Positions 1,509 to 53,491 of a stretch of DNA of 56,211 bases are shown here, one piece after another; the first letter of the stretch is position 1, and each line of letters starts with the position of its first letter. The stretch spans positions 1-56,211 of the forward strand of contig NZ_JACTVA010000038.1 of assembly GCF_014490485.1 (NCBI RefSeq). The letters are read 5' to 3'. The notes under the pieces were generated by a model that worked only from the letters and a program-made list of their open reading frames with translations, was not told the origin of the DNA and made no database searches. Source of the stretch: Teichococcus aerophilus (GTDB lineage Bacteria; Pseudomonadota; Alphaproteobacteria; Acetobacterales; Acetobacteraceae). A program made the position numbers and the translations under genes.

Positions 1509-1746
1509 GGCCGGGGAAAGAATTCCCCGGACCCCATCTTTTTTCTTGTGAGTTTGGCGTCGGGCTTCCGTCCGAGAGCGGACGCTTCTGATGATTTTAA
1601 TAATGGGCCGCGCGGGCTGAACCCTCAGGCGCCGGAGGTCCTAGACCTCCGGCGCACCCAGCCGTCCCCATGACCACACGTTCAGCCATCGCGCGTGAAA
1701 ACTCGAAAAAAGAAAAGAAGGGGTCCGGGGAATTCCTTCCCCGGCC
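1509..1746. repeat. Paired-hairpin 3'-end element, copy A (full length, 238 bp)
   Basis: Fills the convergent gap between the Lrp regulator and the M32 peptidase. Left hairpin 1511-1530 (stem CCGGGGAA/TTCCCCGG, loop AGAA) starts 18 nt after the Lrp stop and is followed by ACCCC and a T-rich run. The right hairpin 1725-1744 is the same unit inverted, ahead of the M32 stop at 1807. The centre 1629-1655 is a perfect 12-bp-arm palindrome with spacer CTA. The interior carries the asymmetric core GGGCCGCGCGGGCTGAACC, defining its + orientation. No coding potential. Confidence 0.9.
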
Positions 1747-1806
1747 TTTCTCTCCCCCAACGGACTCGCCATTCGACCTTCGGTTGCGCCTTCCCTGCCC
1801 GCCCCC

Positions 1807-3291
1807 TCACGCCACCAGGTAGCGGTCCCGCAGATGCGCCGTGAAGTCGGAGGGGTCGAGCGGCTTGCCGGTGGCTGCCCGCAGCAGGTCCTGGAAGCCG
1901 AGGCGGGAGCCCTGGCCGTGGACTTTGGCGCGCAGCCATTCGCGCAGCGGCGTGAAGTCGCCGCCGGACAGCCGGGTGTCCAGTTCCGGCAGGTCGGCGC
2001 GGGCGGCGCGCATCAGCTGGGCGGCCGCCATGGCGCCGAGCGTGTAGGACGGGAAGTAGCCGAAGGCGCCGTCATGCCAGTGGATGTCCTGCAGACAGCC
2101 GCGGGCATCGTCCGGCGGGGTCATGCCCAACAGGCTGGCGAAGCCTTCGTTCCAGGCGGCGGGCAGGCCTTCCACGTCCAGCTCACCGCCGATCAGGGCG
2201 CGTTCCAGGCGGAAGCGCAGGATGACGTGGGCGGGGTAGGTCATCTCGTCGGCATCGACGCGGATGAAGCCGCGTTCCACCCGGCGCCACAGGCCGGCCA
2301 GGTTGTCCGGCGCATAGGGTGCGGCGTCGCCGCCGAAGGCGGCGTGCAGCTGCGGGCCGATGAAGCGCAGGAAGGCGTCCGAGCGGCAGGCCTGCATCTC
2401 GATGATCAGGCTCTGCGATTCATGCGCGGCCATGCCGGCGGCCTCGCCCACTGGCTGGTGGGCGAAGGCACTGGGCAGCCCCCGCTCATAGAGGGCGTGG
2501 CCGGTTTCGTGCAGCACGCCGAGCAGCGCCTGGGCCACCGAGGCATCGTTGTACCGGGTGGTGATGCGGACATCGGTGGGCGTGCCGCCGCAGAACGGAT
2601 GGGTGCTTTCGTCCAGCCGTGCATGGGTGAAGTCCAGACCGACGCGCTCGGCCATGTCGCGGCACAGCGCCTGCTGGGCGGCGATGGGGAATGGGCCCGG
2701 CAGCGGCACCGGGCGGGGGCGCTGCATCTGCAAGGCCTCGGCGCGCGGCAGGGCGTCGGCCAGGAAGGTCTCGTAGGCGGCGAAGATCGGCTCCACATCG
2801 GCGGCGGTGATGCCGCGCTGGTAGCCTTCCATCAACGCGTCATACGGGCTAAGGCCAGTGGCGGCGGACAGGGCCGCGGCCGTTTCCCGCTGCAGGCGGA
2901 CCACTTCCTTCAGCGCGGGCGCGACCATGGCAAAATCGGCATTGGCGCGGGCGGTGCGCCAGCGCTGTTCGCAGGCGGAGTTCGCGCGGGCGGTGGCTTC
3001 CACCAGCGCCGTGGGCAGGGCGACGGCGCGGGCATGGGCGTCCCGCATCAAGGTGAGGTTGGCGTCGTCCCACGCCCCGTGTGCCTCGGCGCTGGCCAGG
3101 TCCTCCGCCACCTGCGGCGCGGTCAGCAATTCATGCGAAAGGCCGGACAGGACGGCCAACTGCTCGCCCCGGGCCTCGGCCCCGCCTGCCGGCATGACCG
3201 CTGCGGCATCCCAATGCAGCATGGATTGTGCCTGGCCCAGCAGGGCGATACGGGCGAAGCGGGCCTTCAGGCGATCGTAAGCTGCAGTCAT
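1807..3291 (-). CDS. Carboxypeptidase Taq, M32 family metallopeptidase
   Basis: 494 residues, the normal M32 length. The zinc site is complete: HETGH at 261-265 gives two His ligands and the catalytic Glu, and HESQS at 290-294 supplies the third ligand, a Glu. The family signature HPFCGGTPTDVRITTRY is at 231-247. M32 enzymes are cytoplasmic Zn/Co carboxypeptidases that remove C-terminal residues from peptides. No signal peptide. AAGGA stands about 8 nt before the ATG at 3291. Monocistronic by context, ending in the convergent element A. Confidence 0.93.
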   Translation of the reverse strand: MTAAYDRLKARFARIALLGQAQSMLHWDAAAVMPAGGAEARGEQLAVLSGLSHELLTAPQVAEDLASAEAHGAWDDANLTLMRDAHARAVALPTALVEATARANSACEQRWRTARANADFAMVAPALKEVVRLQRETAAALSAATGLSPYDALMEGYQRGITAADVEPIFAAYETFLADALPRAEALQMQRPRPVPLPGPFPIAAQQALCRDMAERVGLDFTHARLDESTHPFCGGTPTDVRITTRYNDASVAQALLGVLHETGHALYERGLPSAFAHQPVGEAAGMAAHESQSLIIEMQACRSDAFLRFIGPQLHAAFGGDAAPYAPDNLAGLWRRVERGFIRVDADEMTYPAHVILRFRLERALIGGELDVEGLPAAWNEGFASLLGMTPPDDARGCLQDIHWHDGAFGYFPSYTLGAMAAAQLMRAARADLPELDTRLSGGDFTPLREWLRAKVHGQGSRLGFQDLLRAATGKPLDPSDFTAHLRDRYLVA

Positions 3292-3371
3292 GTGGGGTCC
3301 TTGAGAGCATCATGCTGACGGTGGCACTGGCGGGCCCGGATGGTGCGGCCGCCACAAGCCCGGGCCGGCGC

Positions 3372-3422
3372 CTCGCGTGATTCAGGCGTTTCGGTGTCCC
3401 CACCTCAAGCCATCACGCTCTA
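3372..3422 (+). repeat. Dispersed ~50-bp intergenic repeat, copy 1
   Basis: Contains GTGATTCAGGC at the left and CATCACGCTCTA at the right. It matches copies at 21365-21414 (same strand) and 22275-22324 (opposite strand). The right end runs into the stop codon of the SURF1-like gene (TAG on the minus strand, 3422-3420). Imperfect symmetry (GATTCAGG..CATCACGCTC) suggests a palindromic intergenic repeat; function unknown. Confidence 0.7.
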
Positions 3423-4136
3423 GCGGCGCTGATCCGGCCCCAGCCGAGTCCGGGCCCAGGCGATGAAGACGCCGAGCGCCGCCAGCGCCAGACCGTACCA
3501 GGTGATGACGTAACCCAGATGGCTGTTGGTTGGCTGCGGCATGTGCTGTGCCGGCTGCGGCAAAAGGCCCGATTGTGGCCCCATGGCCACGAGCCCGTAC
3601 GGTGCCGGGGCAGCCAGCGCCACGGCTTCACCGATGGCGGCCGGGTCGAACGTATAGAAGGTACGGCTGGCGGGGCTGCCGGTGGCGCTGGTCCAGCTCG
3701 CGGTTTCGCCCGGACGAATATAGCCCTCGACGCGTACCGGGCCTTCCGGCCGGGCGATGACGCCACCCTCCATCGGCACCCAGCCGCGATCGACCAGGAT
3801 GGGCGCGGCGCCTTCCCGCTGCAGCGGCGTGACGAGATGCGTGCCCAGGGTGTTGCCGCGCACTTCGGCGCCGAAGCGGGCTTCCTTGTCGTGCAGGAAC
3901 TGGCCATCGGCGAAGACCTTGGCATAGGGCGCAGGCGGGTCCGCCAACGGCACGGGCGGGCCGGCCTCCGCCACGGCGAAGGCGGCCAGCAGGTCGGTCT
4001 TCCAGCGCAGGCGCTGCAGTTGCCAGGTGCCCAGGCCGACCAGAATGGCCAGCACGGGCAACAGGCACAGGACGGGCAGGATCAGGCGGCGCCAAGAAGA
4101 GGCCGGGCGGGGAGTCATGGCCGGGGTGTCTATCAT
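3420..4136 (-). CDS. SURF1 family cytochrome c oxidase assembly protein
   Basis: 238 residues if started at ATG 4136; ATG 4118 (MTPRPASS) is equally possible and neither has a strong ribosome site. The fold is as expected for SURF1: an N-terminal membrane helix ending in GTWQLQRLRWK, a periplasmic domain with the conserved PILVDRGWVP segment, and a C-terminal membrane helix (YVITWYGLALAALGVFIAWA). SURF1 proteins help insert or deliver heme a to oxidase subunit I. It is the last gene of the cox operon, separated from ctaE by element B, so it may have its own promoter or depend on read-through. Confidence 0.9.
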   Translation of the reverse strand: MIDTPAMTPRPASSWRRLILPVLCLLPVLAILVGLGTWQLQRLRWKTDLLAAFAVAEAGPPVPLADPPAPYAKVFADGQFLHDKEARFGAEVRGNTLGTHLVTPLQREGAAPILVDRGWVPMEGGVIARPEGPVRVEGYIRPGETASWTSATGSPASRTFYTFDPAAIGEAVALAAPAPYGLVAMGPQSGLLPQPAQHMPQPTNSHLGYVITWYGLALAALGVFIAWARTRLGPDQRR

Positions 4137-4175
4137 GGATGGGGACGGGCCGGCAGGGCCGGAAGGGGGAGTGAA

Positions 4176-4374
4176 GGCCAGGGGAAGGAATTCCCCTGGA
4201 CCCCTTCTTTTTTCTGCAAGTTCGGTATGGGCTAGGCGGACGTGCTTTCGATAATGGCCGCGCTGGCTGAGCGGCGGACCCTGGAGGCCTGGCGCGAACC
4301 AGACTGGTACTTCAGCAGCCACACCCAAAAAGTCGAAAAAAGAAGATGGGGTCCGGGGAATTCCTTCCCCGGCC
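4176..4374. repeat. Paired-hairpin 3'-end element, copy B (short form, 199 bp)
   Basis: Lies between ctaE (3' end) and SURF1 (5' end), both on the minus strand. The hairpin at 4178-4199 has the stem CCAGGGGAA/TTCCCCTGG, an extra A:T pair that is compensated on both sides. The hairpin next to ctaE is 4353-4372 with the standard sequence. The central palindrome is degenerate and about 40 bp are missing compared with full copies. Confidence 0.85.
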
Positions 4375-4447
4375 TTCCCCTGAAACAGAAAAAGGGCCCG
4401 AGGGTGGTGACCCTCGGACCCCTTCGTTCAGGCCAACACCGGAAGCG

Positions 4448-5290
4448 TCAGTGCTGGGCGATCTCGCCCACGCCGAGGATGTAGACCACGACGAACAGGA
4501 ACAGCCACACCACGTCCACGAAGTGCCAGTACCAGGCGGCGGCTTCGAAGCCGAAATGGCGCTGCGGGGTGAACTCGCCGCGATAGGCGCGGACCCAGCA
4601 GACGGCCAGGAAGATGGTGCCGACGATGACGTGGAAGCCGTGGAAGCCGGTCGCCAGGAAGAACACCGAGGGATAGATGCCGCCGGTGAAGGCGAACGGG
4701 GCCTCGGCATACTCGTAGGCCTGGAAGAAGCTGAAGGACATGCCCAGCAGGACCGTCAGGCCCAGGCCCTGGAGCAGGCCCTTGCGGTCATTTTCCAGCA
4801 GCGCGTGGTGCGCCCAGGTGACCGTGCAGCCCGAGAGCAGCAGGATCATGGTGTTGAGCAGCGGCAGGCCCAGCGGGTCGAACGTATGGATGCCGGCGGG
4901 GGGCCAGATGGCCTTGGCGGCACCCGAGACGTGCTCCGGGTACAGGAAGAAGTGGAAATAGGCCCAGAAGAACGCGACGAAGAACATCACCTCGGAGGCG
5001 ATGAACAACACCATGCCGTAGCGCAGGCCGATGCGGACGATGGGGTTGTGGACGCCCGGCTGCTTCGATTCGCGCACGATGTCGCGGAACCAGAAGTACA
5101 TGGAGGCGATGACGCCCAGCAGGCCGACGCCCAGCACCCAGTGGATGTTGTAGTGGGCGAAGACGATGATGCCGAACAGCATCAGCCCGGCCGACAGCGA
5201 CGCGGTCAGCGGCCAGGGGCTGGGGTCCACCAGGTGGTAGGGGTGCTTGTTGTGGGTGGGTGTACCCACCGCGACTTCGCTGCTGGCCAT
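4448..5290 (-). CDS. ctaE: Cytochrome c oxidase subunit III
   Basis: 280 residues from ATG 5290, which is preceded by AGGAAG at a good distance; an in-frame upstream ATG (5320) lacks one. Seven hydrophobic segments are visible, with the subunit III hallmarks NKHPYHLVDPSPWPL near the N-terminus, SEVMFFVAFFWAYFH in helix III and the terminal AAWYWHFVDVVWLFLF. Subunit III stabilises the aa3 core and feeds the proton pathway; it binds no metal. Inner membrane. It follows ctaG by 130 bp and is followed by element B. Confidence 0.96.
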   Translation of the reverse strand: MASSEVAVGTPTHNKHPYHLVDPSPWPLTASLSAGLMLFGIIVFAHYNIHWVLGVGLLGVIASMYFWFRDIVRESKQPGVHNPIVRIGLRYGMVLFIASEVMFFVAFFWAYFHFFLYPEHVSGAAKAIWPPAGIHTFDPLGLPLLNTMILLLSGCTVTWAHHALLENDRKGLLQGLGLTVLLGMSFSFFQAYEYAEAPFAFTGGIYPSVFFLATGFHGFHVIVGTIFLAVCWVRAYRGEFTPQRHFGFEAAAWYWHFVDVVWLFLFVVVYILGVGEIAQH

Positions 5291-5420
5291 CGGGCTTCCT
5301 GGACTCAAGGCGTCACGCAAGGGGTGGAACGGCGGCGGGCAGGCAGGGCCCGGCCTCCGGTCATGCGGAACGATACGACGGAGTGTATCAATCCCGAAAA
5401 GCGGGTTCGGATCAAGTCCG

Positions 5421-6059
5421 TCACGGCGTCGCCGTGTGGCTTGCGCCGGGCCGGATCAGCTCGGTCCGGCGGCCAACATGCTCCCCGGCATTGGCCACGG
5501 CGCCTGCGCGCTCGGCATCCGCCAGGGTGCGGAAGAAGGTGTAGTTGATGGTGATCGTCCGGATGTCCCGCGTATTCGGGTCATCCGCGATCTTGGGGTC
5601 GACCCAGTAGGCGATGGGCATTTCCACCTGCTGGCCGCCAGTCAGCGTCTGCTCGTCGAAGCAGAAGCACGCGACCTTGTGGAAATAGCGGCCGGCCACT
5701 TCCGGCGTCACGTTGTAGGTGGCGATGCCGGTGACCGGCCCCTGGGCGAGGTTCTGCGCGGTGTAGAAGGCCATGCCCTCCTGGCCCAGCGGCAGGTTCT
5801 CGCTGCCCTGCCCGGCGGCGAAGCGCCAGGGCAGGTTGGGATGGGTATTGGCATTGAAGCGGACGGTGATGCTCTTGTCCGTGGCGCCGGGCGCGGTACC
5901 ACCGATCATCGGCGTGCCGTTATAGCCGGTGACGGCGCAGAAGATGGCGTAGAGCGGCACCGAGGCGAAGGCGAGGCCGAGCATGCCGGCCACCACCCCG
6001 CCCGCGATAGTCGCGGTACGGCGGTTGCGGCGGGCGAGTTCCGGGTCCTGAACGGTCAT
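5421..6059 (-). CDS. ctaG: Cytochrome c oxidase assembly protein CtaG (Cox11)
   Basis: 212 residues: short cytoplasmic N-terminus, one membrane helix (~18-41), then an immunoglobulin-like periplasmic domain. The copper-binding KVACFCFDEQTL (Cys131 and Cys133) is intact, as is FYTAQNL upstream. Cox11 delivers Cu(I) to the CuB site of subunit I. It sits 30 bp after the CoxF-like gene and ahead of ctaE, the standard alphaproteobacterial order. Confidence 0.95.
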   Translation of the reverse strand: MTVQDPELARRNRRTATIAGGVVAGMLGLAFASVPLYAIFCAVTGYNGTPMIGGTAPGATDKSITVRFNANTHPNLPWRFAAGQGSENLPLGQEGMAFYTAQNLAQGPVTGIATYNVTPEVAGRYFHKVACFCFDEQTLTGGQQVEMPIAYWVDPKIADDPNTRDIRTITINYTFFRTLADAERAGAVANAGEHVGRRTELIRPGASHTATP

Positions 6060-6089
6060 GGCGTGGCTCCCTTCCCTGCTCTGCCGGTG

Positions 6090-6218
6090 TCAGCTTTGGG
6101 CCATGCGGGCCATGGCGATGAAGTAGAACAGCGCCACCAGGCCCAGAAGCGCGATCAGGATGGCCCAGTTGCGGCTGCGGCGGCGGCGCTCGAACGCCGC
6201 CAGCTCCTCGGGCGTCAT
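6090..6218 (-). CDS. CoxF-like small membrane protein of the cox operon
   Basis: 42 residues, [20 protein letters not shown] and onward: a charged Arg-rich cytoplasmic N-terminus followed by one membrane helix ([18 protein letters not shown]). Its ATG overlaps the ctaB stop as ATGA and ctaG follows 30 bp later, exactly where alphaproteobacterial cox operons carry a 40-60 residue CoxF protein. Sequence conservation in this class is low; the call rests mainly on position, size and topology. Likely an assembly accessory or a small oxidase subunit. Confidence 0.8.
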
Positions 6219-7174
6219 GCGCCGAACACCAGCTTGTCGGCCGCCAGGGCGGTGAACAGGGCGAACAGGTACAGGATGGAGAAGCGGAAGGCGGCGCGGG
6301 CCGGGGCATCGTTGCTGCGGCTGACGCCGGCCTCGTCCTGCTCATCGCGCTTCACGCGCCACATATAGTGCAGGAAGAAACCGCCCAGCACGAGCGCGGC
6401 GCCGCCATAGGCCAGGCCGGACATGCCGATCACGGTAGGGGCCAGGCTGACCGGCACCAGCAGCAGCGAGTACAGCCAGATCTGCCGGCGGGTTTCCTTG
6501 GCGCCGGAGACGACGGGCAGCATCGGCACGCCGGCACGTTGGTAGTCGCCCGAGGCGTAGAGGGACAGCGCCCAGAAATGCGGCGGGGTCCAGACGAAGA
6601 TGATGGCGAACATCACCAGCGCCTCGATCGAGACGTGGCCGGTGACCGCGGCCCAGCCGATCATCGGCGGGAAGGCGCCGGCGGCACCGCCGATGACGAT
6701 GTTCTGCGGCGTCCGGCGCTTCAGCCACATCGTGTAGATGAAGACATAGAAGGCGATGGAGCCGGCCAGCACGGCGGCGGCCACCATGTTGGTGGCCAGG
6801 CCCATCATGACGACCGAGGCCACGGCCAGGAACACGCCGAAGCTCAGCGCCGCCTGCGGGCGGATGCGGCCGGCCGGGATGGGGCGGTTGGCGGTGCGGC
6901 GCATGATCGCGTCGATATCGCGGTCGTACCACATGTTGATGGCGCCCGAGGCACCGGCGGCGACGGCCACGCAGAGGATGGCGGTGACGGCCAGCACCGG
7001 GTGGATGCCACCCGGCGCGACCAGCAACCCGACGAGGCCGGAGAACACGACGAGCGACATGACACGCGGCTTCAGCAGCGCGATCCAGTCGCGCGCCTCG
7101 CTCAGGTCCAGGTCGTCAGACGTGCCGAGGGGGGCAGAAGCCCCCCCCGTCTGACGGAACGTACTGTCGCTCAT
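6215..7174 (-). CDS. ctaB: Protoheme IX farnesyltransferase (heme O synthase)
   Basis: 319 residues from ATG 7174, chosen because GGAGG stands upstream; an in-frame upstream start at 7213 would add 13 residues. UbiA-type prenyltransferase with about nine membrane helices. The Mg-diphosphate motif NMWYDRDID (80-88) is complete. The enzyme adds a farnesyl group to heme B to give heme O, the precursor of the heme A used by CtaD encoded just upstream. Confidence 0.95.
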
Positions 7175-7259
7175 CAGCCGGCCTCCATGCCCGGAGGATG
7201 CGGCGTCCACCAAAATGCGCGCCGCATGCCCCGAGCCTTAGTGTGATCGCGCCCCGCGC

Positions 7260-8861: not shown

Positions 8862-8998
8862 TCTGTGTCCGTCCCGCTCTCGAACCGTCCGTGGTCACCG
8901 CAGCAGGCGGCGCCTCTGTTATTCATCCTGGCCGCCAGGGGCGGCACCGGACCTGTCTCTCTCAACAGAACCGCCCGGGGGCGGCTCCGTTCGCCGTC

Positions 8999-10691: not shown

Positions 10692-10707
10692 GGCCGCCCG
10701 CCCCGCT

Positions 10708-11454: not shown

Positions 11455-11558
11455 GTCCTGTCCTCGCGCCGGCCATCCGCTAGCGCCTGCGGCCGATGGG
11501 CGCAAGCATGACTGTTGTTCGGCATCCCTGCCATGGGCGGTGGGGGGAAGGCTTGCGG

Positions 11559-12458: not shown

Positions 12459-12627
12459 GTTGGCGCCATCTTGCACCCCGCCGCCGACGACGCCAGGGCG
12501 ACCACGCGGAATTCATCCGGGAAGAAGGGATTGTTTCGCGGCGCGACCCGGGCGGGTTGGCGCAGCGTTCGTTCGGCAACGGCACCCTTTGCATTGAGCA
12601 GCTAGGGCTTGGCGCAGGTGGCGTGGA

Positions 12628-12866
12628 GGCCGGGGAAAGAAATCCCCGGACCCCTTCTTTTGTTTGCGAGTCTTGCCGGCGTGGCTGTTGAAGCGGGTGA
12701 GCTTGAGAGACGGCTGGGTGCGCCGGAGGTCCTAGACCTCCGGCGACTGACGGTTCAGCCCTCGTGGCTCATTGCGAACATCAGCAGCAGCGTGCGCTCT
12801 CAGCCATGAAGCGCTTCACCAAACTCGCAGAAAAAAGAAGGGGTCCGGGGAATTCTTTCCCCGGCC
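12628..12866. repeat. Paired-hairpin 3'-end element, copy C (239 bp)
   Basis: Occupies the gap between the SIMPL gene 3' end and the EamA gene 5' end (same strand). Hairpins 12630-12649 (one stem mismatch, AATCCCCGG instead of TTCCCCGG) and 12845-12864. Central palindrome 12721-12745 with arms CGCCGGAGGTC/GACCTCCGGCG. The asymmetric core is in the - orientation. The rest of the 12459-12949 gap shows nothing else. Confidence 0.88.
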
Positions 12867-12949
12867 TTCCCTCCCTCCCCGCCCCGCAAGCCACGAAGCC
12901 AAGGGAGGAAGCGGCAAGGTCCCCCTCCCCCGAAGGCGTCGCACACCCA

Positions 12950-14962: not shown

Positions 14963-15027
14963 GGCCGCATGCATCACGGTGCGGGATGCGCATCCAGGGC
15001 GGTTCGGTCTTGAGGTTGGGGGAAGAA

Positions 15028-15262
15028 GGCTGGGGACGGAATTCCCCGGATCTCTTCTTTCTTTTTGCCAGTTTTTCTGGAGCGGCGGCGGGAGCGTCGG
15101 GCTTCTCGGAGAGAGTCGCGACAAAAGCCCATCTTCGTTGGCGACGGACGGTCCGGTCCGGGTGCCCGTGACAACCTGCATGGCCCCAGTTGTGGTCACA
15201 GGTCCAACGCCAGCCGTCAGAAGCAAGATGGGGTTTCAGGAGAATTCCTTCCTTTGACCTTC
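15028..15262. repeat. Paired-hairpin 3'-end element, copy D (decayed)
   Basis: Follows the LysR stop. The left hairpin 15030-15049 is recognisable (CTGGGGACGGAATTCCCCGG) and is followed by the usual T-rich run. The right end (about 15222-15262) keeps AAGATGGGG and GAATTCCTTCC but has lost the pairing, and no central palindrome remains. The rest of 14963-15400 has no other feature I can support and contains the SCO1 gene promoter. Confidence 0.65.
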
Positions 15263-15400
15263 CCCTCCCGCGCAAGGCCGCACGCCGACCATCCCCAACC
15301 ACGCTGCTGTGGCCCGGCACCCGGCCCGTTAGTGCGATAAGGTCGCAACATTTCGGCCAGGACGGTTTCGCCGGGCTAAACCTTCGGCTAAGCATGACGC

Positions 15401-18468: not shown

Positions 18469-18493
18469 GGGCTGAGGTCTCTGGGAGCGGAGG

Positions 18494-19046
18494 GTCGGGG
18501 AAGGAATTTCCCGGACCCCTTCTTCCATTCTGCGAGTTGGCGTCACGCCTCGGAGTGAGAGCGTATTCTGCTTGATGAGAGTGACGTTGGGCCAGACGGA
18601 CTGAATCCTAAGGCACCGAGTTCGCATCCGACTGAGGGTGGGAAGAAAGGTCAGGGGAAAGAGTTCCCCTGAAACCCCATCTTTTTTCTGTCAGTTGGCG
18701 GAGGGGCTTCAGGACTGTGGGTGCGATCGTGAGAAAGATCGGGGCCACCTAGGCTGAACCATCGGTCCCGGCGGCTATGGACCTCCGGCGCAACCCGGAT
18801 CCGGAAAGCCTGGACGCCCTTACAGCGACACCGGAAGACTCTCAAAAGGAAGATGAGGCCCGGGGAATCCCTTCGCCGGCCTTTCTTGCCCAAGCCGGAT
18901 GTCGATCTGTCCCAGGGCCGCCAGCGTCTGATGGCTCCCCGCACGGCCCATTTTAGCTTCATCATGCACCGGCACTGATGTCTGCAGCGCCCAACTCGCA
19001 GAAAGAGAAGGGGACCGGAGAATTCTCTCCCCGGCCTTCCCTCCCC
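18494..19046. repeat. Composite of paired-hairpin elements, copy E (four terminal hairpins)
   Basis: Fills most of the 684-bp gap between cysK and the ThDP enzyme. Four terminal units occur in the order left, left, right, right: ~18495-18514, 18651-18672, ~18859-18878, 19025-19044. The second has the compensated stem TCAGGGGAA/TTCCCCTGA. The 18651-18878 pair forms one complete element with an imperfect central palindrome near 18768-18793. The flanking outer pieces each carry the same half of the asymmetric core (GGGCC..CTGAA left, its inverse GGCCCATTTTA right), so they are inverted halves rather than one element split by insertion. Confidence 0.8.
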
Positions 19047-24094: not shown

Positions 24095-24108
24095 AGGGGG
24101 GGTGTGAA

Positions 24109-24346
24109 GGCTGGGGAAAGAATTCCCCAGACCCCTTCTTTTGCTTTTTCGAGTTTCTGGGCCTGGCTGCTGCTAGCGCAGTCCTGAGATACGGCTGGGT
24201 GCGCCGGAGGCTTATGACCTCCGGCGACTGACGGTTCAGCCCGCGTGGCCCATTGGTAAACATCAAGCAGCGCCCGCTCTCAGTCCTGAAGCGCGCCGCT
24301 AAACTTGCAGAAAAAAGAAGGGGTCCGGGGAATTCCTTCCCCGGCC
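24109..24346. repeat. Paired-hairpin 3'-end element, copy F (238 bp)
   Basis: Between the convergent MFS and histidine kinase genes, 16 nt from the first stop and 15 nt from the second. Left hairpin 24111-24130 has the compensated stem CTGGGGAA/TTCCCCAG; right hairpin is 24325-24344. Central palindrome 24201-24225 is shortened to GCCGGAGG/CCTCCGGC arms. Core in the - orientation. Confidence 0.9.
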
Positions 24347-24359
24347 TTCCTCAAACTCC

Positions 24360-26534: not shown

Positions 26535-26945
26535 CGGCTTATGTTTGATGCAAGCCAGGGCTGGCGGCAAGGGAAGCGGGGCGTGCGTCGGCACGAGCGG
26601 TGCTGCCGGCCATCCACCCTGTGCCAGCCTGCGTGCGGCGCCATGCGGCGGACACGGCACCGGCCAGCCTCACCGTGGCCGGACACACCCATCGTGGCGG
26701 CGCGCGGGGTCATCCCCGACGCACCGGCCGATACCGACGCCCGGCGCGGCACTGACGCGCACATGGCCGAGGATCGCCGCGGCGGACATGCGCCGGGCCA
26801 CGTCAGTCACGTCTCCGCTTGATGCAGGCTGCAAGGATCGCGTCCTGAGCGCGATCCTCGCGTTCAAGAAGCCTGTGCCGGAACCGTGGCACCGATGGTG
26901 GCGTCGCCTGGAGCCGATCGATATTCAACCTGAGGCGTGGAAGAC
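26535..26945. other. Gene-free stretch upstream of the kinase, with a hairpin
   Basis: No ORF here resembles a protein. The kinase promoter must lie in it. The only structure is a perfect 9-bp hairpin, AGGATCGCG-N7-CGCGATCCT at 26834-26858, about 300 bp before the kinase start, without a T-run. Confidence 0.45.
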
Positions 26946-27163
26946 GGTCAGGGGAAGGAATTCCCCTGAAACCCCGTCATTTTTCTGTCAGTTGCGTGAG
27001 ACTTCGGGACCGGCGGATGCAGCCATGAGAAAAATCCACCGAGGCTGAACCCTCAGCCTTTGGCGTGATCCCGCCCTTGGCCTGGAAAGGCCCAACGCCG
27101 CCACAGCCAAACCCGAAAGACTCGCAGAAGAAAGATGGGGCCCGGGGAATTCCTTCCCCGGCC
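26946..27163. repeat. Paired-hairpin 3'-end element, copy G (218 bp)
   Basis: Downstream of prpC on the same strand. The distal hairpin 26948-26969 has the compensated 9-bp stem TCAGGGGAA/TTCCCCTGA with loop GGAA; the hairpin near the prpC stop is 27142-27161. It shares its interior with the inner element of copy E (GAGAAA..ATC..GGCTGAACC), which suggests a subfamily; the central palindrome is lost. Confidence 0.85.
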
Positions 27164-27193
27164 TTCCTGCCCAAGCCCGACTGCCGATCCGGC

Positions 27194-29402: not shown

Positions 29403-29410
29403 GGGAGGAA

Positions 29411-29434
29411 GGCCGGGGAAGGAATTCCCCAGGC
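29411..29434 (+). repeat. Single terminal hairpin of the 3'-end element, copy H
   Basis: Only the left unit is present, ~9 nt after the ltnD stop: CCGGGGAAGGAATTCCCCAG at 29413-29432 followed by a T-rich stretch. No inverted partner or palindrome follows before the next gene. It is the minimal version and, on this tandem junction, sits where an intrinsic terminator would be. Confidence 0.75.
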
Positions 29435-29596
29435 CTCATCTTCTTTGTTCGAGTTTGGGGTGCGCCGGGGGAGCGGGATCGCATGAGCTGCACCGGCTGT
29501 CTTGGCCCGTCCGTCTGTGGTTCAACGCATGGGTTGTTTGAAGTGCCGCCATCGGCCTGATCGGCCCCATCATCCCGACAAGCCGAGGAACCCCAT

Positions 29597-30538: not shown

Positions 30539-30591
30539 CGGCGGTTGGGGAACTGGCGTCTTCTGGTGGTGTGGAAGGCCAAGAAAAGGAA

Positions 30592-30829
30592 GGCCGGGGA
30601 AGGAATTCCCCGGACCCCTTCTTTTCTGTTTTCGAGTTATTCGGGCGAGGCTGTTGAGAGGGCGGGCCTGAGGGGCTGGGTGCGCCGGAGATCCTAGACC
30701 TCCGGCGACTGACGGTTCAGCCCGCATGGCCCATTTATAAAATCATCAAGAAGCGCCTGCTCTCAGTCCTGCAGCACTACGCCAAACTTGCAGAAAAAAG
30801 ATGGGGTCCGGGGAATTCCTTCCCCGGCC
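30592..30829. repeat. Paired-hairpin 3'-end element, copy I (238 bp)
   Basis: Between the convergent BASS transporter and rsmA. Hairpins 30594-30613 and 30808-30827 are the standard sequence; central palindrome 30683-30707 has one arm mismatch (GAGATC against GACCTC). Core in the - orientation. It starts 53 nt after the transporter stop; the 323-bp gap contains nothing else. Confidence 0.9.
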
Positions 30830-30861
30830 TTCCCTTCACCGTCCCGTAAACCCCGCTGCCC

Positions 30862-38132: not shown

Positions 38133-38370
38133 CGCGGGCGAATCCGCCCGCAGCCTGCGCGGGCATTCGCCCGGACCCACCGCGCGCATCTGCCCGGACC
38201 TTCCGCCGGCAGGTGCCGAAGCCATCCGCGGGCACCTGCCCGTGCCCTTCCGCGGGCATCCGCCCGTGCCTTTCCGCGGGCATCCGCCCGTGCCTTTCCG
38301 CGGGCATCCGCCCGTGCCTTTCCGCGGGCATCCGCCCGACACCGACCGCGGGCACCCGCCCGACCGACTG
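38133..38370 (+). repeat. Array of ten ~24-bp hairpin repeats in the porin leader
   Basis: Units begin with CGCGGG (or a variant) at 38133, 38158, 38181, 38204, 38227, 38251, 38275, 38299, 38323 and 38347. The last six are spaced exactly 24 bp; the earlier ones are diverged and spaced 23-25 bp. Units at 38251-38322 are identical. Most contain CGGGC-N4-GCCCG, a 5-bp stem whose loop varies (ATCC, ACCT, ATTC, ACCC) while the stem is kept; unit 38204 has the shorter matched stem CGGC/GCCG. The array ends at the ribosome site of the porin. The rest of 37813-38132 shows nothing I can name. Confidence 0.9.
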
Positions 38371-39833: not shown

Positions 39834-39916
39834 ACACTGGGACGAGGGGGACGGCGGTTTTCCGCTCCCCCCGTTTTCCGCCAAAGCATCTGATTTTTTT
39901 ATGCCGGAGGCAGAAA

Positions 39917-40155
39917 GGCCGGGGGAAGGAATTCCCCGGGGCCCTTCTTTTTTCTGCGAGTTTGGCGGAGCGCTGCAGGACTAAGAGCGGACGCTTTTGA
40001 TGATATTTAAAATGGGCCGCGCGGGCTGAACCCTCAGTCGCCGGAGGTCTAGGACCTCCGGCGCGCACAGCCGTCGCTCAAGCGCACTGCTTCAGCAGTC
40101 CCGACCGAAAAACTTGAAAAAGGAAGAAGGGGTCCGGGGAATTCTTTCCCCGGCC
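39917..40155. repeat. Paired-hairpin 3'-end element, copy J (239 bp)
   Basis: Between the convergent porin and lptG genes. Left hairpin begins at 39919 with one extra G in the stem (CCGGGGGAA); right hairpin is ~40134-40153. Central palindrome 40039-40063, spacer TAG. The interior closely matches copy A (GGACGCTT..TTGATGAT..GGGCCGCGCGGGCTGAACC), same + orientation. Nothing else in the 344-bp gap apart from about 80 bp between the porin stop and the element. Confidence 0.9.
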
Positions 40156-40177
40156 TTCCCTCCCCGCCCCACCCCGG

Positions 40178-41287: not shown

Positions 41288-41294
41288 GCGGTGC

Positions 41295-42461: not shown

Positions 42462-42573
42462 ACGGCGGGAGATTACCTTCCGGGGGGCGGCAAGGGAAAT
42501 GGCTGGCCTGACGCCGTCTGTGAAGGGCCATGGCGTGTTTCTGATGGCAATGGGGCGATCGGGCCGGGGCCAA

Positions 42574-42878
42574 AAGGGGCTCCGCCCCTTCTGGACTTCC
42601 CCGCCGGGGTGGAAAATCCACCCCGGACCCCGCTGCCAGTTTATTGAGGCTGGGTGCCGGAGCGGTGCGCGGATTGATGCGATCCGGCGCTTTGGCATCG
42701 CGGCGCTCCGCAGGGGGGAAGCGCTTTCAAAGTATTCTAATGAAAGCCGCGCAAGCTGCGGCGTTGGTCACCAAGCCCACGGACCCGAGGCACAGCCAGG
42801 GCTTGGAGCTGCGAAAACAGATGGCGGGGTCTGGGGTGGCACTGCCACCCCAGCGGGGTCCAGGGGCCGCGCCCCTGG
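42574..42878. repeat. Related paired-hairpin element, type 2 (copy L, ~305 bp)
   Basis: Between the AfuC-like gene 3' end and lptF. Each end has two hairpins. Left: AAGGGGC/GCCCCTT (42574-42590) and CCGGGGTGGA/TCCACCCCGG (42604-42626). Right, inverted: CTGGGGTGGC/GCCACCCCAG (42831-42853) and CCAGGGGC/GCCCCTGG (42860-42878). ACCCC follows the inner hairpin as in type 1. Stems differ between ends but remain paired. The right end is 12 nt from the AfuC stop. Confidence 0.82.
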
Positions 42879-42890
42879 CCTCACTCCGCA

Positions 42891-46159: not shown

Positions 46160-46184
46160 GCGTTGCGTGCCTTACTGAACGGGC

Positions 46185-47219: not shown

Positions 47220-47362
47220 CGGGCGGCTCCTCCGGCGCGCCCCTTGAGCGGGGGCGGCGTTGTTTCGCCTCCATGCAACAAAACTGTCACATTAGCAACG
47301 GCGCTGCCCAGCCCTGGCGGGTCCGCGAGGCCACACTCCAGGCCCAGGCGGCCGCGGCCGGC

Positions 47363-48313: not shown

Positions 48314-49392
48314 GCCGCCTTGCCGCCCAGCCGGGCCTGACGTGCGCGCATCTGCTCCCGGTGCAGGTTGTACAGGCCGGCGGCGATGATGATGCCGGCG
48401 CCTGCGAAGGTGGCCGGGGCCGGCCAGTCACCCCAGATGACCAGGCCGATCGGCAGGCCCCAGATCAGCGGGCTGTACTCGAACGGCGCCAGGACGGAGA
48501 CGGGGGCGGAGGCGAAGGCGCGGGCGAAGAAGAAATGCGCCAGCGCGTTGCCGCAGCCGATCCACATCAGCGCCGCCGCGACGCCGAGGGAGGGGATGAA
48601 GGCGCCCGGCGGCGGGAAAGCCGGCATCAGCAGCAGCCCGGTGGGGATATGCGCCACCATCAGCCAGAAGGTGATGACGACCGGCGCATCCGTCCGCGCC
48701 AGTACGCGCGTCCACAGCCGCGTCAGCGCCATCAGCGCCACGGCGGCCAGCAGCGCCGCCGCCTGCCAGTTCCAGAGCGAGCCACCCGGCTGCAGCATTA
48801 CCATGACGCCGGAGAAGCCCACCAGGGTGCTGACCCAGCGCCGCCAGCCCACCACTTCCCCCAGCAAGGGAATGGCCAGCAGCGTCATGATGAGCGGGGA
48901 GACGGAGGAGAGCGCATAGGTCTCCGCCAGCGGCAAGCCATGCGCCCAGGCGACGTAGAAGGCCACCGTCACCACGCAATGCAGCAGGCTGCGGGTGGTG
49001 ATCAGCCGCACATTCACCGGGCGGAGGGAGACGCCGCGATAGGTGGAGCGCGCCAGCACCGCCATGGTGATGGCACCGAAGATGCCGCGCCACATCATGG
49101 CGGCCCCGGTTCCCACCTGCGGCACCACCCACTTCACCGCGGCGTCCGAGAAGGCGATCAGCAGGTAGCCGACCAGGATCAGCAGGATGCCGCGCAACGT
49201 TCCGTCCACGCGGCCGGCGGGCGGAGGCGGCGCCGGCTGCGGGGACGGTACGGTCGCGGAAGCGGTGGCAGTCGTAGAAGCTGTGGCGGCGGTAGCGGCT
49301 TGGGCGGAAGGAGCAGCAGGGCCAGGCGGAAAAGGCCCGGCGGCAGGATCGGCAGGATCAGGCACGCAACGTGCCCCCGCGGGGGGATGCAT
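48310..49392 (-). CDS. EamA/DMT family transporter (first of a pair), with low-complexity N-terminus
   Basis: 360 residues from ATG 49392. Ten membrane helices begin only at ~72 (GILLILVGYLLIAFSDAAVK). The preceding ~65 residues are almost entirely Ala, Thr, Ser and Pro. No ribosome site precedes ATG 49392, and an in-frame GTG lies just before the first helix (VDGTLRGIL), so the true start may be much later. It lies 14 bp after the GT-C gene stop, so it may be the tail of that operon. Confidence 0.85.
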   Translation of the reverse strand: MHPPAGARCVPDPADPAAGPFPPGPAAPSAQAATAATASTTATASATVPSPQPAPPPPAGRVDGTLRGILLILVGYLLIAFSDAAVKWVVPQVGTGAAMMWRGIFGAITMAVLARSTYRGVSLRPVNVRLITTRSLLHCVVTVAFYVAWAHGLPLAETYALSSVSPLIMTLLAIPLLGEVVGWRRWVSTLVGFSGVMVMLQPGGSLWNWQAAALLAAVALMALTRLWTRVLARTDAPVVITFWLMVAHIPTGLLLMPAFPPPGAFIPSLGVAAALMWIGCGNALAHFFFARAFASAPVSVLAPFEYSPLIWGLPIGLVIWGDWPAPATFAGAGIIIAAGLYNLHREQMRARQARLGGKAA

Positions 49393-49406
49393 GGGGTGGC
49401 ACGGGC

Positions 49407-51041
49407 TCAGTCCTTCCGTTCAAACAACATGTAGCCGTCGGTCTCGCCCGCCTGACGATAATGCTGCCACGTCGCCGCGAACAGGGGATGGCGGGTGAAG
49501 TAGGCGATCATGTCGAAGGGCTGGCCGGCGCACCAGCTGATGTGTGCGTCCCGCGCCACCATGACGGCTTCCGGCGGGCGGGCGGCGAAGTCCCGCGCCA
49601 CGGAATCGAACAGGTAGCGCTCGGCCTCGCTCATCTGCGCGGGGGCGCGGAAGCGGGCGCCGTCCTCCGGGCAGGTCTGGTACACCGCCTGCAGCAGCCA
49701 GGTGCTCATGAAGCGCAGCACCGGCTGGTTCTCCACGTAGTTGAGCGCCGGGTAGGCCGGGTAGATGTCGGGGGAGAGCACGAGCAGGCGGCCTTCCGGC
49801 GCCTCCTTTTCCAGCCACGCCGCCAGGCGGCCGACGGGGCCATTGTGGTAGTTGAACTCGCGCCACGGCGCCTCCCCCCCTCGCATCACCAGCAGGGTCA
49901 GCGCCACGGCGGAACCCGCCGCCAGCACCGGCGCAAGCCGGACCGAGGTCCCGCGCGGCAGCAGCGCGTCAACGGCGCGGGAGAGCGCGACGCCGCAGAG
50001 CAGGCCGCCGAACATCCACACGGGCACAACGTGGTAGCTCCACCCCTTGTGCTGCACCAGCGCGGCGACCAGCCCGCCCAGCATGGCGGCGGCCAGCAGG
50101 CGCGGCAGCCAGCCAAGGGTGAGCGTGCCGATGCGCGTGGTGAACAGGCACAGGCAGAAGGTCATCAACCCGGCGGTGAACAGCTGCTCGGTCAGCACGA
50201 CCTGCCACCAGGAGGCGTTGCCGAGGCCGACGTAATAGCTCCACACCAGCGGCACCACCTGGCCGAAATAGGCCGGGAAGCCAAAGACGATCAGCGCCAG
50301 ATACGCTGCCCACAGCCCGGCCAGCCCCCAGGGCACCGGGTCCAGCAACGCGGCGCCCAGCCGCCGGCGGCGCAGCGCGGCCAGCAGCACCACCGCCTCA
50401 ACGCAAGCCGGCACGGCCAGGAAATGCGGCTTCAGCGCGAAGCCGGTGGCGGCGATCAGCGTGACCAACGCCATCATGCGGGCGCTGGTGCGCATCCCCT
50501 CCACCCGCCGTTCCGCCAGGAACAGGTAGGGAAGCGCGGCGGCGGCCATGATCTGCTCCCGCTGGCCGAAATCGTAGCCGGCCAGCAGCAGCACCAGCGG
50601 CAGCAACGCCAGCATCATGGCCCGCTCGGCCGGGCCGCGCGGCGGATGCAGCCGCAGGCACAGCCAGCTGACCGCGCCGCAGAAGACCAGCAGCAACAGC
50701 AGCAGCGCCTGCACCGCATCCAGCGGCGTCCACGCCGCCAACGCCGCCGCCGGCAGGTTCAACAGGAAGATCAGCGGTGGATTGACGTCGATGAGCTGGG
50801 TGTACAGCCCCTCCCCCGCCACCATCCGCTCGGCGAAGCTCAGCACCGCCGCGACGTCCTGGTTCAGCGGCGGGGAGACCACCAGCAGCAGGAACAGCAG
50901 CGCCGGCAGCATGGCCGGCAGCAGCGCCCACAGGCTCAACCGAGGGCCATCCCCGGGATGACCGGTGGAAGGCGCGGCGTGGCGTGGCTGCAGGCGCAGG
51001 TCACGCAAGGCGGCACGGGTCGAGGGCAGTGTGTCGGACAT
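49407..51041 (-). CDS. Membrane glycosyltransferase, GT-C fold (ArnT/PMT-like)
   Basis: 544 residues, about eleven membrane helices between ~38 and ~415, then a soluble C-terminal periplasmic domain. The first loop has the acidic GT-C residue Asp62 (PPLNQDVAAV) and DVNPPL at 85-90, equivalent to the PP motif of PMT/ArnT enzymes. Such enzymes use polyprenyl-phosphate sugars on the periplasmic side. The genes across the divergent start encode a likely donor synthase and flippase. Its ATG overlaps the methyltransferase ATG on the other strand. Confidence 0.78.
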   Translation of the reverse strand: MSDTLPSTRAALRDLRLQPRHAAPSTGHPGDGPRLSLWALLPAMLPALLFLLLVVSPPLNQDVAAVLSFAERMVAGEGLYTQLIDVNPPLIFLLNLPAAALAAWTPLDAVQALLLLLLVFCGAVSWLCLRLHPPRGPAERAMMLALLPLVLLLAGYDFGQREQIMAAAALPYLFLAERRVEGMRTSARMMALVTLIAATGFALKPHFLAVPACVEAVVLLAALRRRRLGAALLDPVPWGLAGLWAAYLALIVFGFPAYFGQVVPLVWSYYVGLGNASWWQVVLTEQLFTAGLMTFCLCLFTTRIGTLTLGWLPRLLAAAMLGGLVAALVQHKGWSYHVVPVWMFGGLLCGVALSRAVDALLPRGTSVRLAPVLAAGSAVALTLLVMRGGEAPWREFNYHNGPVGRLAAWLEKEAPEGRLLVLSPDIYPAYPALNYVENQPVLRFMSTWLLQAVYQTCPEDGARFRAPAQMSEAERYLFDSVARDFAARPPEAVMVARDAHISWCAGQPFDMIAYFTRHPLFAATWQHYRQAGETDGYMLFERKD

Positions 51042-51894
51042 GCAGGCAACTCATCCCGGCCCGGAGGGAAAGAAGGGCCTTGGGCACTATCGATCGGCAT
51101 TGCGGCGGAGTTCGGGCGCTGCCACAAGCGAAGCCGTGGATCTTGCAGAATACGCCCTGATGGATGCGGTCGAGGACGGGATGTGGTGGTACCGCGCCGT
51201 CCATGCCCGCATCGCCGCCGCGCTGGATGCCCGCCCGGGCGTGGACGGCCTGCCGCTGCTGGATGCCGGCTGCGGCACCGGCGGCCTGCTGCGCAGCCTG
51301 GCCCGGACCGGCCGCAATGGAAGCAGCCTGGCGGGGCTGGAATACAACCCGGACGCCGCCGCCCGTGCCGCCGCCAAGTCCGGCGCCGCGGTCTCGGCCG
51401 GGGATGTCAACGCCCTGCCCTTCGCCCCCGCCAGCTTCGGCGCGCTGGCGAGCGTGGACGTGCTGTGCCACCGCGGCGTCGACGAAGCCCGCGCCCTGGC
51501 GGAATTCCACCGCGTGCTGGCCCCTGGCGGTACGCTGGTGCTGAACCTGCCGGCCTTTGAATGGCTGCGCAGCGCGCACGATACCCGCGTGCACAATGCC
51601 CGCCGCTACACCGCCCGGGGCGCCACCGCTCTGCTGGCGGCGGCGGGCTTCGAACGCATCCAGGCCCGCTACTGGAACAGCCTGCTGCTGCCGCTGATGG
51701 TGGCCCAGCGCAAGCTGCGCTCCAACACACCGGACGCCGCCAGCGATGTCGCCCCCTTCCCGCCATGGTTGGACGCCACATTGCACACCGCCACCCGGGC
51801 GGAGGCGGCGCTGGCCGGCATCGGCCTACGCTTTCCGGCCGGTGGCTCGGTGCTGGTCGTCGCCAGCCGCGCCGATGCCGGCCCCGCCCCCTGA
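51040..51894 (+). CDS. Class I SAM-dependent methyltransferase
   Basis: 284 residues from ATG 51040; a GTG at 51031 with GAGGG upstream and an ATG at 51160 are alternatives, so the N-terminus is uncertain. SAM motif I is LLDAGCGTGGLL; GLEYNPDAA is the acidic loop, AGDVNALPFAPASF motif II and LAPGGTLVLNLPAF the post-motif. DGMWWYRAVHARI before motif I is common in methyltransferases of sugar and lipid clusters. It may methylate the sugar or lipid made by the cassette; inference. The glycosyltransferase follows 23 bp downstream. Confidence 0.85.
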   Translation: MQATHPGPEGKKGLGHYRSALRRSSGAATSEAVDLAEYALMDAVEDGMWWYRAVHARIAAALDARPGVDGLPLLDAGCGTGGLLRSLARTGRNGSSLAGLEYNPDAAARAAAKSGAAVSAGDVNALPFAPASFGALASVDVLCHRGVDEARALAEFHRVLAPGGTLVLNLPAFEWLRSAHDTRVHNARRYTARGATALLAAAGFERIQARYWNSLLLPLMVAQRKLRSNTPDAASDVAPFPPWLDATLHTATRAEAALAGIGLRFPAGGSVLVVASRADAGPAP

Positions 51895-51917
51895 CCGTTT
51901 CCCCCGGAACCCCGCCC

Positions 51918-52895
51918 ATGCCTGACCTGCCGCAGCCGACCATCGGCCTTTCCATCGTCGTGCCGGTCTATCGCGGCGCCGCCACCGTGGGGCAACTCGT
52001 CGAGGCACTCTCCGCCCTGCGGCCCGAAGGCGGGCTGGAAATCGTGCTGGTCAACGACGGCAGCCCGGACAACAGCGCCGAGGTGTGCCGCGCGCTGGCG
52101 CAAACCGCCACCGTGCCGCTGACCTATGTGGAGCACGCCCGCAATTTCGGCGAGCACAACGCGGTCATGTCCGGCCTGCGCCGCGCCCGCGGCCACTACG
52201 TCATCACCATGGACGACGACCTGCAGAACCCGCCCGAGGAAGTGCTGCACCTGTACGACCATGCCCGCAACGGGCAGTGGGACGTCGTCTACACCCGCTA
52301 TGCGGAGAAGAAGCACGAGGGCTGGCGCAACCTCGGCAGCCGCTTCGCCAACTGGGTGGCGGACCAGCTGATGGACAAGCCAAAGGGGCTCTACCTCTCC
52401 TCCTTCCGCTGCATGTCCGCGCTCGTGGTGCGGGAAGTCGCCCGCTACGCCGGCCCCTACCCCTATGTGGACGGGCTGATCATGCAGGTGACACAGCGCA
52501 TCGACAGCATCGAGGTGATGCACCTGGCCCGCGCCGAGGGCCGCAGCAACTACACGATGCGCCGGCTGATCCGGCTGTGGCTGAACCTCGCCACCAACTT
52601 CTCCCTGCTGCCGCTGCGGCTGGCCATGCTGGCGGGCCTCGCCATGGGCAGCCTCGGCGTCATCGGCGCCATCTTCACGATCATCGAGGCACTGACGAAG
52701 GAAACTCCCTCCGGCTGGGCCTCGGTCATGACGGTCACGCTGCTGATCGCCGGCGTGCAGTTCCTCATCCTCGGCGTCATGGGCGAGTATCTCGGCCGCG
52801 CCTTCCTCTCCGCCAACGGCAAGCCGCAAGGCGTGGTGCGAGATGTGGTGCGCTCCACCACCGCGCCGAGCAACCCGGAAGGCCCGCGCGCATGA
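51918..52895 (+). CDS. Polyprenyl-phosphate glycosyltransferase, GT2 family (ArnC/DPM-like)
   Basis: 325 residues. GT-A fold with VNDGS (45-49) and the metal-binding MDDDLQNPPEEV (98-109), the dolichol-phosphate-sugar synthase signature. ARNFGEHNAVMSGL before it is ArnC/GtrB-like. Two C-terminal membrane helices (~228-250, ~265-288) anchor it. It would transfer a sugar from a nucleotide donor to undecaprenyl phosphate on the cytoplasmic face. It overlaps the SMR gene by ATGA. Confidence 0.9.
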   Translation: MPDLPQPTIGLSIVVPVYRGAATVGQLVEALSALRPEGGLEIVLVNDGSPDNSAEVCRALAQTATVPLTYVEHARNFGEHNAVMSGLRRARGHYVITMDDDLQNPPEEVLHLYDHARNGQWDVVYTRYAEKKHEGWRNLGSRFANWVADQLMDKPKGLYLSSFRCMSALVVREVARYAGPYPYVDGLIMQVTQRIDSIEVMHLARAEGRSNYTMRRLIRLWLNLATNFSLLPLRLAMLAGLAMGSLGVIGAIFTIIEALTKETPSGWASVMTVTLLIAGVQFLILGVMGEYLGRAFLSANGKPQGVVRDVVRSTTAPSNPEGPRA

Positions 52896-53227
52896 TGGGC
52901 TCCTGGCTGGTGCTGGCGGCCGCCATCTGCACCTCCATGACCGGGCAGGTTCTTCTGAAGGCCGGCACGCTGGGCGAAGGCAACTTCCTAGTGCAGCTGT
53001 TCCGCTGGCAAACCATCCTGGGCCTCGGCTGCTACGGTGGCGCCGCCCTGCTCTACATCATCGCGCTGCGCAAGATCCCGATGAGCGTGGCCCTGCCCTG
53101 CACCGCCGCGTCCTACGTCGTCATCGCCCTCGTCGGCTACTTCATGTTCGGCGAATCCCTCGGCTCCCAAAAAATCGCCGCGATCGCGCTGATCTCGGTG
53201 GGGGTGGCCCTGCTGGCGACGGCCTAA
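52892..53227 (+). CDS. Small multidrug-resistance-type membrane protein (ArnE/EmrE-like)
   Basis: 111 residues with four membrane helices (SWLVLAAAICTSMTGQVLLK, ILGLGCYGGAALLYIIALRK, MSVALPCTAASYVVIALVGY, IAAIALISVGVALLATA). Size and YIIALRKIPMSVALPC resemble the SMR/ArnE class, which includes flippases of undecaprenyl-phosphate sugars. The EmrE catalytic Glu14 position is not conserved, arguing against drug export. Directly coupled to the GT2 gene, so a flippase role is likely. An element follows 23 bp after the stop. Confidence 0.85.
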   Translation: MMGSWLVLAAAICTSMTGQVLLKAGTLGEGNFLVQLFRWQTILGLGCYGGAALLYIIALRKIPMSVALPCTAASYVVIALVGYFMFGESLGSQKIAAIALISVGVALLATA

Positions 53228-53248
53228 CGCAGAGGTAAAGCAAGGCAA

Positions 53249-53491
53249 GGCCGGGGAAGGAATTCCCCGGACCCCATCTTTTCTTTTTTCGAGTTTTTGG
53301 GCGAGAGCTGTCGAATGGTTGGCTCTGAGACCCGGCTGGGTGCGCCGGAGGTCTAGGACCTCCGGCGACTGCCGGTTCAGCCCGCGTGGCCGATTATTAA
53401 AATCATCAAGCGGCGCCCGCTTTCAGTCCTGAAGCGCTCCGCCAAATTCACAGAAAAGAAAGAAGGGGCCCGGGGAATTCTTTCCCCGGCC
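53249..53491. repeat. Paired-hairpin 3'-end element, copy K (243 bp)
   Basis: Between the convergent SMR and chemoreceptor genes. Hairpins 53251-53270 (loop GGAA) and 53470-53489; central palindrome 53343-53367 with spacer TAG. Core in the - orientation (GGTTCAGCCCGCGTGGCC). Nothing else in this 309-bp gap. Confidence 0.9.

Follow-up and report, generated by a model that had tools for sequence, protein, structure and literature searches.

The 56,211-nucleotide contig NZ_JACTVA010000038.1 of Teichococcus aerophilus (the whole of which we call the window) carries copies of a paired-hairpin repeat. The original prediction, made from the letters of the window alone, had placed this repeat at gene 3′ ends, either as a bidirectional terminator or 3′-end processing element, or as a miniature inverted-repeat transposable element (MITE) tolerated only there. 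We found that the repeat is a copied one of high abundance, that a sister species lacks it at most of the corresponding sites, and that it is kept almost only downstream of stop codons. With moderate confidence, we interpret it as a mosaic non-coding repeat, similar to MITEs and to bacterial interspersed mosaic elements (BIMEs), which is kept after stop codons and whose arms are predicted to end transcripts.

The repeat with inverted ends is real. Its arm, GGCCGGGGAAGGAATTCCCCGGACCCC, is composed of a hairpin, ACCCC and a T-run; with up to 3 mismatches it has 15 matches in the window and none in 100 shuffles, and the arm pattern has 644 matches in the 5.66-Mb genome, compared with 0 for the pattern read backwards. 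The ends of the element are two inward-facing arms, each with a GC-rich hairpin, ACCCC, a T-rich run and a CTGCGAGTTTGG-like tail. The consensus of 35 full copies, among which the mean column identity was 81%, runs from AAGG through the hairpin, ACCCC, the T-rich run, CTGCGAGTTTGGCG and the interior into the inverse of the first part, and ends in CCTT. The interior is built of variable modules, the commonest being an AT-rich strip plus a palindrome. In two samples of the genome (1.63 of 5.66 Mb: a first set of 831 kb, which includes the window, and a held-out set of 799 kb) we counted 184 pairs, of which 114 were 225-250 bp long and 90 combined this length with the palindromic core. The window gave no match to Rfam at the gathering score.

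The element is strongly biased towards gene 3′ ends. Only the first set served to train the profile and the gene model, and at the threshold of 8 bits neither set gave a match in the reversed control; junctions and gaps are those of a home-made gene caller, used without cross-check to an annotation. Altogether 234 elements were found, which extrapolates to about 800 per genome: 113 in convergent, 104 in tandem and 13 in divergent gaps, 1 weak match in a gene and 3 at sample edges. The first set held 118 elements (93 pairs and 25 lone arms), of which 117 lay in gaps (57 convergent, 55 tandem, 5 divergent) and 1 at a stretch edge, while random placement by free gap length would put 22 in convergent gaps (largest value in 10,000 placements, 37) and 37 in divergent ones (smallest, 18). 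The held-out set held 116 (91 pairs and 25 lone arms): 56 convergent, 49 tandem and 8 divergent among the 113 in gaps, against 17 convergent (largest, 32) and 29 divergent (smallest, 13) on random placement; two of the other 3 were at stretch edges and one was a 22-nt match within a gene. Elements in tandem gaps lay nearer the upstream stop in 43 of 55 cases in the first set and 40 of 49 in the held-out set. Among gaps of at least 40 bp, those occupied were 50/97 and 51/87 of the convergent, 52/233 and 47/259 of the tandem, and 5/113 and 7/92 of the divergent ones (first and held-out set, respectively). The genome search and tabulation of positions proposed in the original prediction bore out the bias, which recurred in the held-out sample; copies were not found equally often in divergent gaps or within genes. 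The bias is strong and not absolute, as 13 of the 230 elements in gaps were in divergent ones.

The density of elements is very uneven among contigs. Contigs C1 and C35 are copy-poor: C1 has 7 copies over 240 kb and C35 has 1 over 80 kb, whereas C66 has as many as 13 within 40 kb. Nine proteins sampled from C1 and C35 belonged to ordinary metabolic, transport and chemotaxis families, plus one cGAS-like enzyme, and pointed to no replicon type.

The copies of the window are as follows; all but E and H are measured from AAGG to CCTT, and a strand applies to the lone arm H.

Copy A, 1507-1748: full pair, in the convergent gap 1492/1807.
Copy B, 4174-4376: pair with a shorter interior, in a tandem gap.
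Copy C, 12626-12868: full pair, in a tandem gap.
Copy D, 15026-15260: pair with a diverged interior, in a tandem gap.
Copy E, 18491-19038: four arms, an inner pair (18648-18883) within a rearranged outer pair.
Copy F, 24107-24348: full pair, in the convergent gap 24094/24360.
Copy G, 26945-27165: pair of a sub-family with an extra outer motif, in a tandem gap.
Copy H, 29409-29456, plus strand: lone arm, 7 nt past a stop codon.
Copy I, 30590-30831: full pair, in the convergent gap 30538/30862.
Copy J, 39915-40157: full pair, in the convergent gap 39833/40178.
Copy K, 53247-53493: full pair, in the convergent gap 53227/53537.

Trained on 58 arms, a covariance model gave 26 matches in the window, 23 of them convincing; the 3 weakest were the same hairpins on the opposite strand. 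This model placed the arms of copy E at 18485 and 18642 on the plus strand and at 18842 and 18997 on the minus strand, so that E, listed before as one copy, is not a single element. Copies A, C, F, I and J are of nearly equal length, as had been claimed, and measure 242-243 bp rather than 238-239 bp. By our own gene caller, the earlier count was exact: five of the six convergent junctions of the window carry a copy and none of the six divergent ones does, the exception being the 7-nt gap 21755/21763. The left arm of copy F starts within the stop codon or directly after it. The outer motif of the sub-family resembles GATCGACATTCGG and lies about 12 nt before the arm (in the window at 26914-26928, 27177-27191 and 18895-18909). 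In the 1.63 Mb, 38 of 95 matches to it were upstream of an arm, and as the reversed control gave 45 matches, most of those away from arms are attributable to chance. Some arms are chimeric: a different hairpin, ATCAAACC..GGTTTGAT, comes after the stem and replaces ACCCC and the T-run (L059:15150-15197, and about position 24771 of contig C24 in the own genome). A tandem array of 24-nt period occupies 38201-38362 of the window, in a divergent gap.

We compared the element among relatives. The pattern with the exact stem was found in 16 of 17 genus genomes (the own included), mostly in low counts, and in 7 of 200 family genomes. The structure model, with at most 150 matches scored per genome, matched in all 17 genus genomes, with only 2 matches in G011, and in 48 of 249 family genomes from 24 of 102 genera, many of these being a single weak match. 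At least 80 named loci were matched, and among the matches listed all were from Roseomonas or Pseudoroseomonas. Plasmid records gave 2 matches, both in Pseudoroseomonas cervicalis and covering only 16-18% of the query; phage records gave none. The hairpin, ACCCC and the T-rich run are kept in relatives with a differing interior, and the model-based length of pairs was 250-293 bp in G010, 138-191 bp in G006 and 122-252 bp in G014. In G001 all 12 sampled arms were single, and 7 of the 12 lay in small convergent gaps. Among the relatives' gap elements 2 of 54 were in divergent gaps; as these regions were chosen around high-scoring matches, they show the form of the element and not its frequency.

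Ten orthologous sites (A to J, K being left out) were compared with G010, the relative of highest identity. G010 has no arm at eight of them (A, B, C, D, F, G, I and J; I viewed from one side), and carries elements at E and after the gene of H. Plain hairpins are present in G010 at A, B, F/G and J. The eight sites, scored as empty by the absence of an arm, show that copies turn over between species. In the more distant G006, B and C carry elements of the same type, A, E and G carry elements with other arms, and there is no element at D, at J or, on the side viewed, at I (F and H fell outside the comparison). The interior at E and G in G006 resembles, by eye, the core seen in the own genome. 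Since B and C are filled in G006 and empty in the nearer G010, either the same gene ends have been filled repeatedly or losses occur. We asked whether the nesting in copy E offers a clean empty site and rejected this, because the outer copy is rearranged and the insertion point is thus unreadable.

The arms form hairpins locally, and their stems carry compensatory changes. The best stem is without mismatch in 186 of 211 arms, and is the same at both ends in only 20 of the 93 pairs of the first set, many stems differing by compensated changes. In 58 arms chosen for the diversity of their stems the covariation score was 0.247, compared with 0.117 in shuffles (0/500), and 47 cells were changed on both sides, compared with 17.2 (0/500); the number of further pair types in these arms was not above shuffles. 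On full copies the local hairpins showed 8 two-sided changes against 1.3 in shuffles (0/500), and pairing of arm to arm showed none. Such long arm-to-arm pairing was favoured both by the minimum-energy fold of a single copy (z -9.94) and by the alignment fold. We nevertheless rejected it as the functional fold, because covariation backs the local hairpins and gives nothing for the long pairing.

The arms probably end transcripts. A stable GC-rich hairpin stands downstream of the stop codon, and a strong hairpin followed by a T-run, facing incoming transcription, would be expected to end the transcript at the copy. A sense arm lies no more than 100 nt past the stop at 243 of 1346 complete gene ends, at a median distance of 23 nt and in 128 of the 243 cases within 25 nt, which leaves little space for another terminator between. 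In addition, what remains of a convergent gap beside one pair (65 nt; 81 gaps) is shorter than the convergent gaps without an element (117 nt; 109 gaps). A strict terminator scan misses typical sense arms, because ACCCC separates the stem from the T-run; the arms that it called mostly read in the opposite direction, the sense exceptions being D (15030, plus strand) and the right outer arm of E (19036, minus strand). Pairing of an A-tract with the U-tract could close the spacer gap in some arms; however, the pairing position of the A-tract is A whether its partner is T (69) or A (39).

It is possible that the element is a dedicated bidirectional terminator or 3′-end processing element, selected because genes need it. 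The nearness of arms to stops, the local covariation of the hairpins, the T-rich run kept across genera, the compact single arms in the small convergent gaps of G001 and the elements of G006 at gene ends B and C all point that way. However, the arm that faces the stop is not better kept than its partner: for 45 pairs P was 0.24 for bits, 0.15 for T count and 0.32 for the stem, and for 39 held-out pairs P was 0.87. In the 29 pairs close to a stop the stem score favoured the arm away from the stop (P=0.03). Lone arms in tandem gaps also showed no orientation bias, 22 of 43 pointing with the gene (6/10, 3/10, 9/15 and 4/8; the relatives' arms were picked by high score, and one of the 43, from G010, is really a pair interrupted by Ns). 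Together with the ACCCC spacer, the sites that G010 dispenses with and the bias of the families without a T-run described below, this makes a terminator selected for need unlikely. Of the original terminator reading, the bias to 3′ ends, the short distance to stops and the local covarying hairpins held; its dedicated form is unlikely.

Two related families lack the T-run. A type-2 paired-hairpin element, missing from the original prediction, lies at about 42569-42881 of the window and consists of an outer GC hairpin, CCGGGGTGGAAAATCCACCCCGG, ACCCC and GCTGCCAGTTT. The two samples hold 12 and 10 type-2 elements, 7 in convergent, 15 in tandem and 0 in divergent gaps. A third paired-hairpin family (CAGGGGATACGATCCCCTG ... 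AAAGGCCTCAGGCCTTTGGCGGGGAGAG) is found in the own genome mainly at 3′ ends, for example near position 42072 of C60 and 31966 of C51. Its 17 and 5 elements were distributed as 10 convergent, 11 tandem, 0 divergent and 1 in a gene or at an edge, the reversed control giving 2 and 0. When the opposite end of this third type was scored by itself, it gave 22 and 8 elements, of which 15 lay in convergent, 11 in tandem and 3 in divergent gaps and 1 in a gene or at an edge; it is less clean because its reversed control gave 14 and 3 matches.

That families without a T-run share the bias is expected if position reflects what is tolerated. The element might be a MITE-like repeat that is purely selfish and leaves transcription unaffected, seen at 3′ ends only because insertions elsewhere are lost; the turnover of copies and the absence of a selection signal on the stop-facing arm fit this as well, and the available excerpts of PMC3049150 make the same argument for pneumococcal repeats and insertion sequence (IS) elements. 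Against it stand the compensatory changes in the stems, a T-rich run that different genera retain even in lone arms, and the 128 sense arms so close to a stop. Conservation of the hairpin could still reflect a need in transposition rather than in termination. We consider a repeat wholly without effect quite improbable. The MITE tolerated at 3′ ends, which the original prediction gave as its alternative, fits the spacer, the bias shared by families without a T-run, the upkeep of the two arms and the orientation of lone arms at least as well as the terminator does, and the two readings are compatible.

MITEs are short and non-coding, with terminal inverted repeats, many copies, and presence or absence between relatives. 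The present element is likewise short and non-coding, with inverted terminal repeats and many similar copies, and the eight empty sites of G010 are sites in a relative without it. We could not detect a target-site duplication in 93 pairs (word lengths 2-6, 8 and 9, offsets 0-6; none above z 3.5), in agreement with the absence noted before; no transposase was identified; and no called gene lay between facing arms 0.6-5 kb apart in the 1.63 Mb, where one such pair, of 761 bp, was found. With no duplication, no enclosed gene and no transposase, mobility rests on copying and on presence or absence only. These results weigh against a mobile repeat whose arms end transcripts, as do several others. 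The spacer ACCCC argues against termination by the arms, the evidence for which is indirect, the T-run of typical sense arms not starting within 0-2 nt of the stem. A native-looking hairpin persists beside the copy at B (a separate plain hairpin with a T-run, stem 4390-4425 on the minus strand, between the copy and the upstream stop), and perhaps at J, so that replacement of native terminators is not general. Finally, the state of B and C, filled in G006 and empty in G010, is not predicted by simple insertion at random into tolerated places.

In G004 and G014, facing arms 892 and 666 bp apart (L097:8063-8954 and L093:12717-13382) hold open reading frames (ORFs) of 238 and 123 amino acids without a Pfam match. 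These ORFs are possibly passengers, or else the pairs are a larger relative of the repeat. We also considered that the flanks of copies are remnants of a native hairpin split by the element, and rejected this, since the inverted signal was weak (z 1.9 to 2.7) and the best pairs shared the outer motif.

The element shares traits with several described systems; one open library, judged by titles and the starts of abstracts, gave no description of the repeat itself. The closest described precedent that we found, likened by description and not by sequence, is the pneumococcal SPRITE. In the available excerpts of PMC3049150, SPRITE is a terminator-like repeat with one hairpin, a long stem and a tract, enriched between convergent genes (15 copies between convergent genes and 15 upstream of a gene in the table), for which the authors weigh a tolerated parasite against a co-opted terminator. 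As far as those excerpts go, both repeats are interspersed, have a hairpin and a U-rich tract and are strongly enriched between convergent genes near 3′ ends, whereas two facing arms, copied mosaic interiors, the ACCCC spacer and the extrapolated copy number set the present element apart.

Repetitive extragenic palindrome (REP) and BIME elements are described, in the portions of PMC3733652 and PMC12306157 at hand, as extragenic palindromes, many of them near stop codons. The present repeat is similar to these in being extragenic, mosaic, present as single palindromes and as inverted pairs, and near stop codons. A REP/REPIN system moved by a RAYT (REP-associated Y1 tyrosine) transposase would account for the high copy number and for the single and inverted palindromic units. 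However, Y1_Tnp had 0 matches in the own genome and 1 marginal match in the 17 genus genomes, on which results we rejected a RAYT-driven REPIN. Judged by eye, neither a GTAG nor a CGTC tag stands at the ends of the consensus of 35 copies, and the palindrome is followed by a T-rich run, unlike in REP/BIME as there described; such a system is very improbable.

A sequence conserved in hundreds of terminator-like hairpins where genes end also recalls the uptake signals of natural transformation in Neisseria and Pasteurellaceae, 9-11 nt long, which the available part of PMC1852404 reports to form such hairpins at gene ends. Our element is likewise a genome-wide repeat of this form; by contrast with that signal, it has a 48-nt arm, copied interiors, strongly varied stems and a total length of up to about 250 bp. 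That it represents DNA uptake sequences sitting in terminators is thus extremely improbable. Compared with MITEs in general, likened by description, it shares short, non-coding sequence, terminal inverted repeats and many copies, and differs in having no target-site duplication, no autonomous partner that we found, and terminal repeats that are themselves hairpins. In anatomy it is closest to MITE/BIME-like mosaic repeats and in position to SPRITE, and it is a proven member of neither.

For a mosaic repeat kept after stop codons, we envisage the following course. Some machinery, or recombination between copies, would spread the element; recombination or gene conversion between copies may be the route of copying. 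Insertions between a promoter and its gene would be lost. A copy just past a stop codon would end transcripts arriving from either side, and could replace a native terminator. Termination would make the element harmless or mildly useful at 3′ ends, which gives it no proven purpose. A bolder form of this scheme, which we consider less likely than not, is that the mobile repeat took over transcript ending in the lineage, its arms displacing ordinary terminators by a hairpin-ACCCC-T-run geometry that current terminator rules miss, and relatives achieving the same by a single compact arm or by a facing pair. Arms stand in 101 of the 184 convergent gaps in the samples that measure 40 bp or more.

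Should the arms indeed end transcripts, the spread of this repeat would have rewired gene ends by the hundred in a single species. The sister species, in which several of these junctions keep plain hairpins, would then offer a natural experiment on the replacement of terminators, and terminator predictors would be missing a class in GC-rich genomes. If the arms do not end transcripts, the element would instead be a clear example of a repeat whose surviving positions are set by selection.

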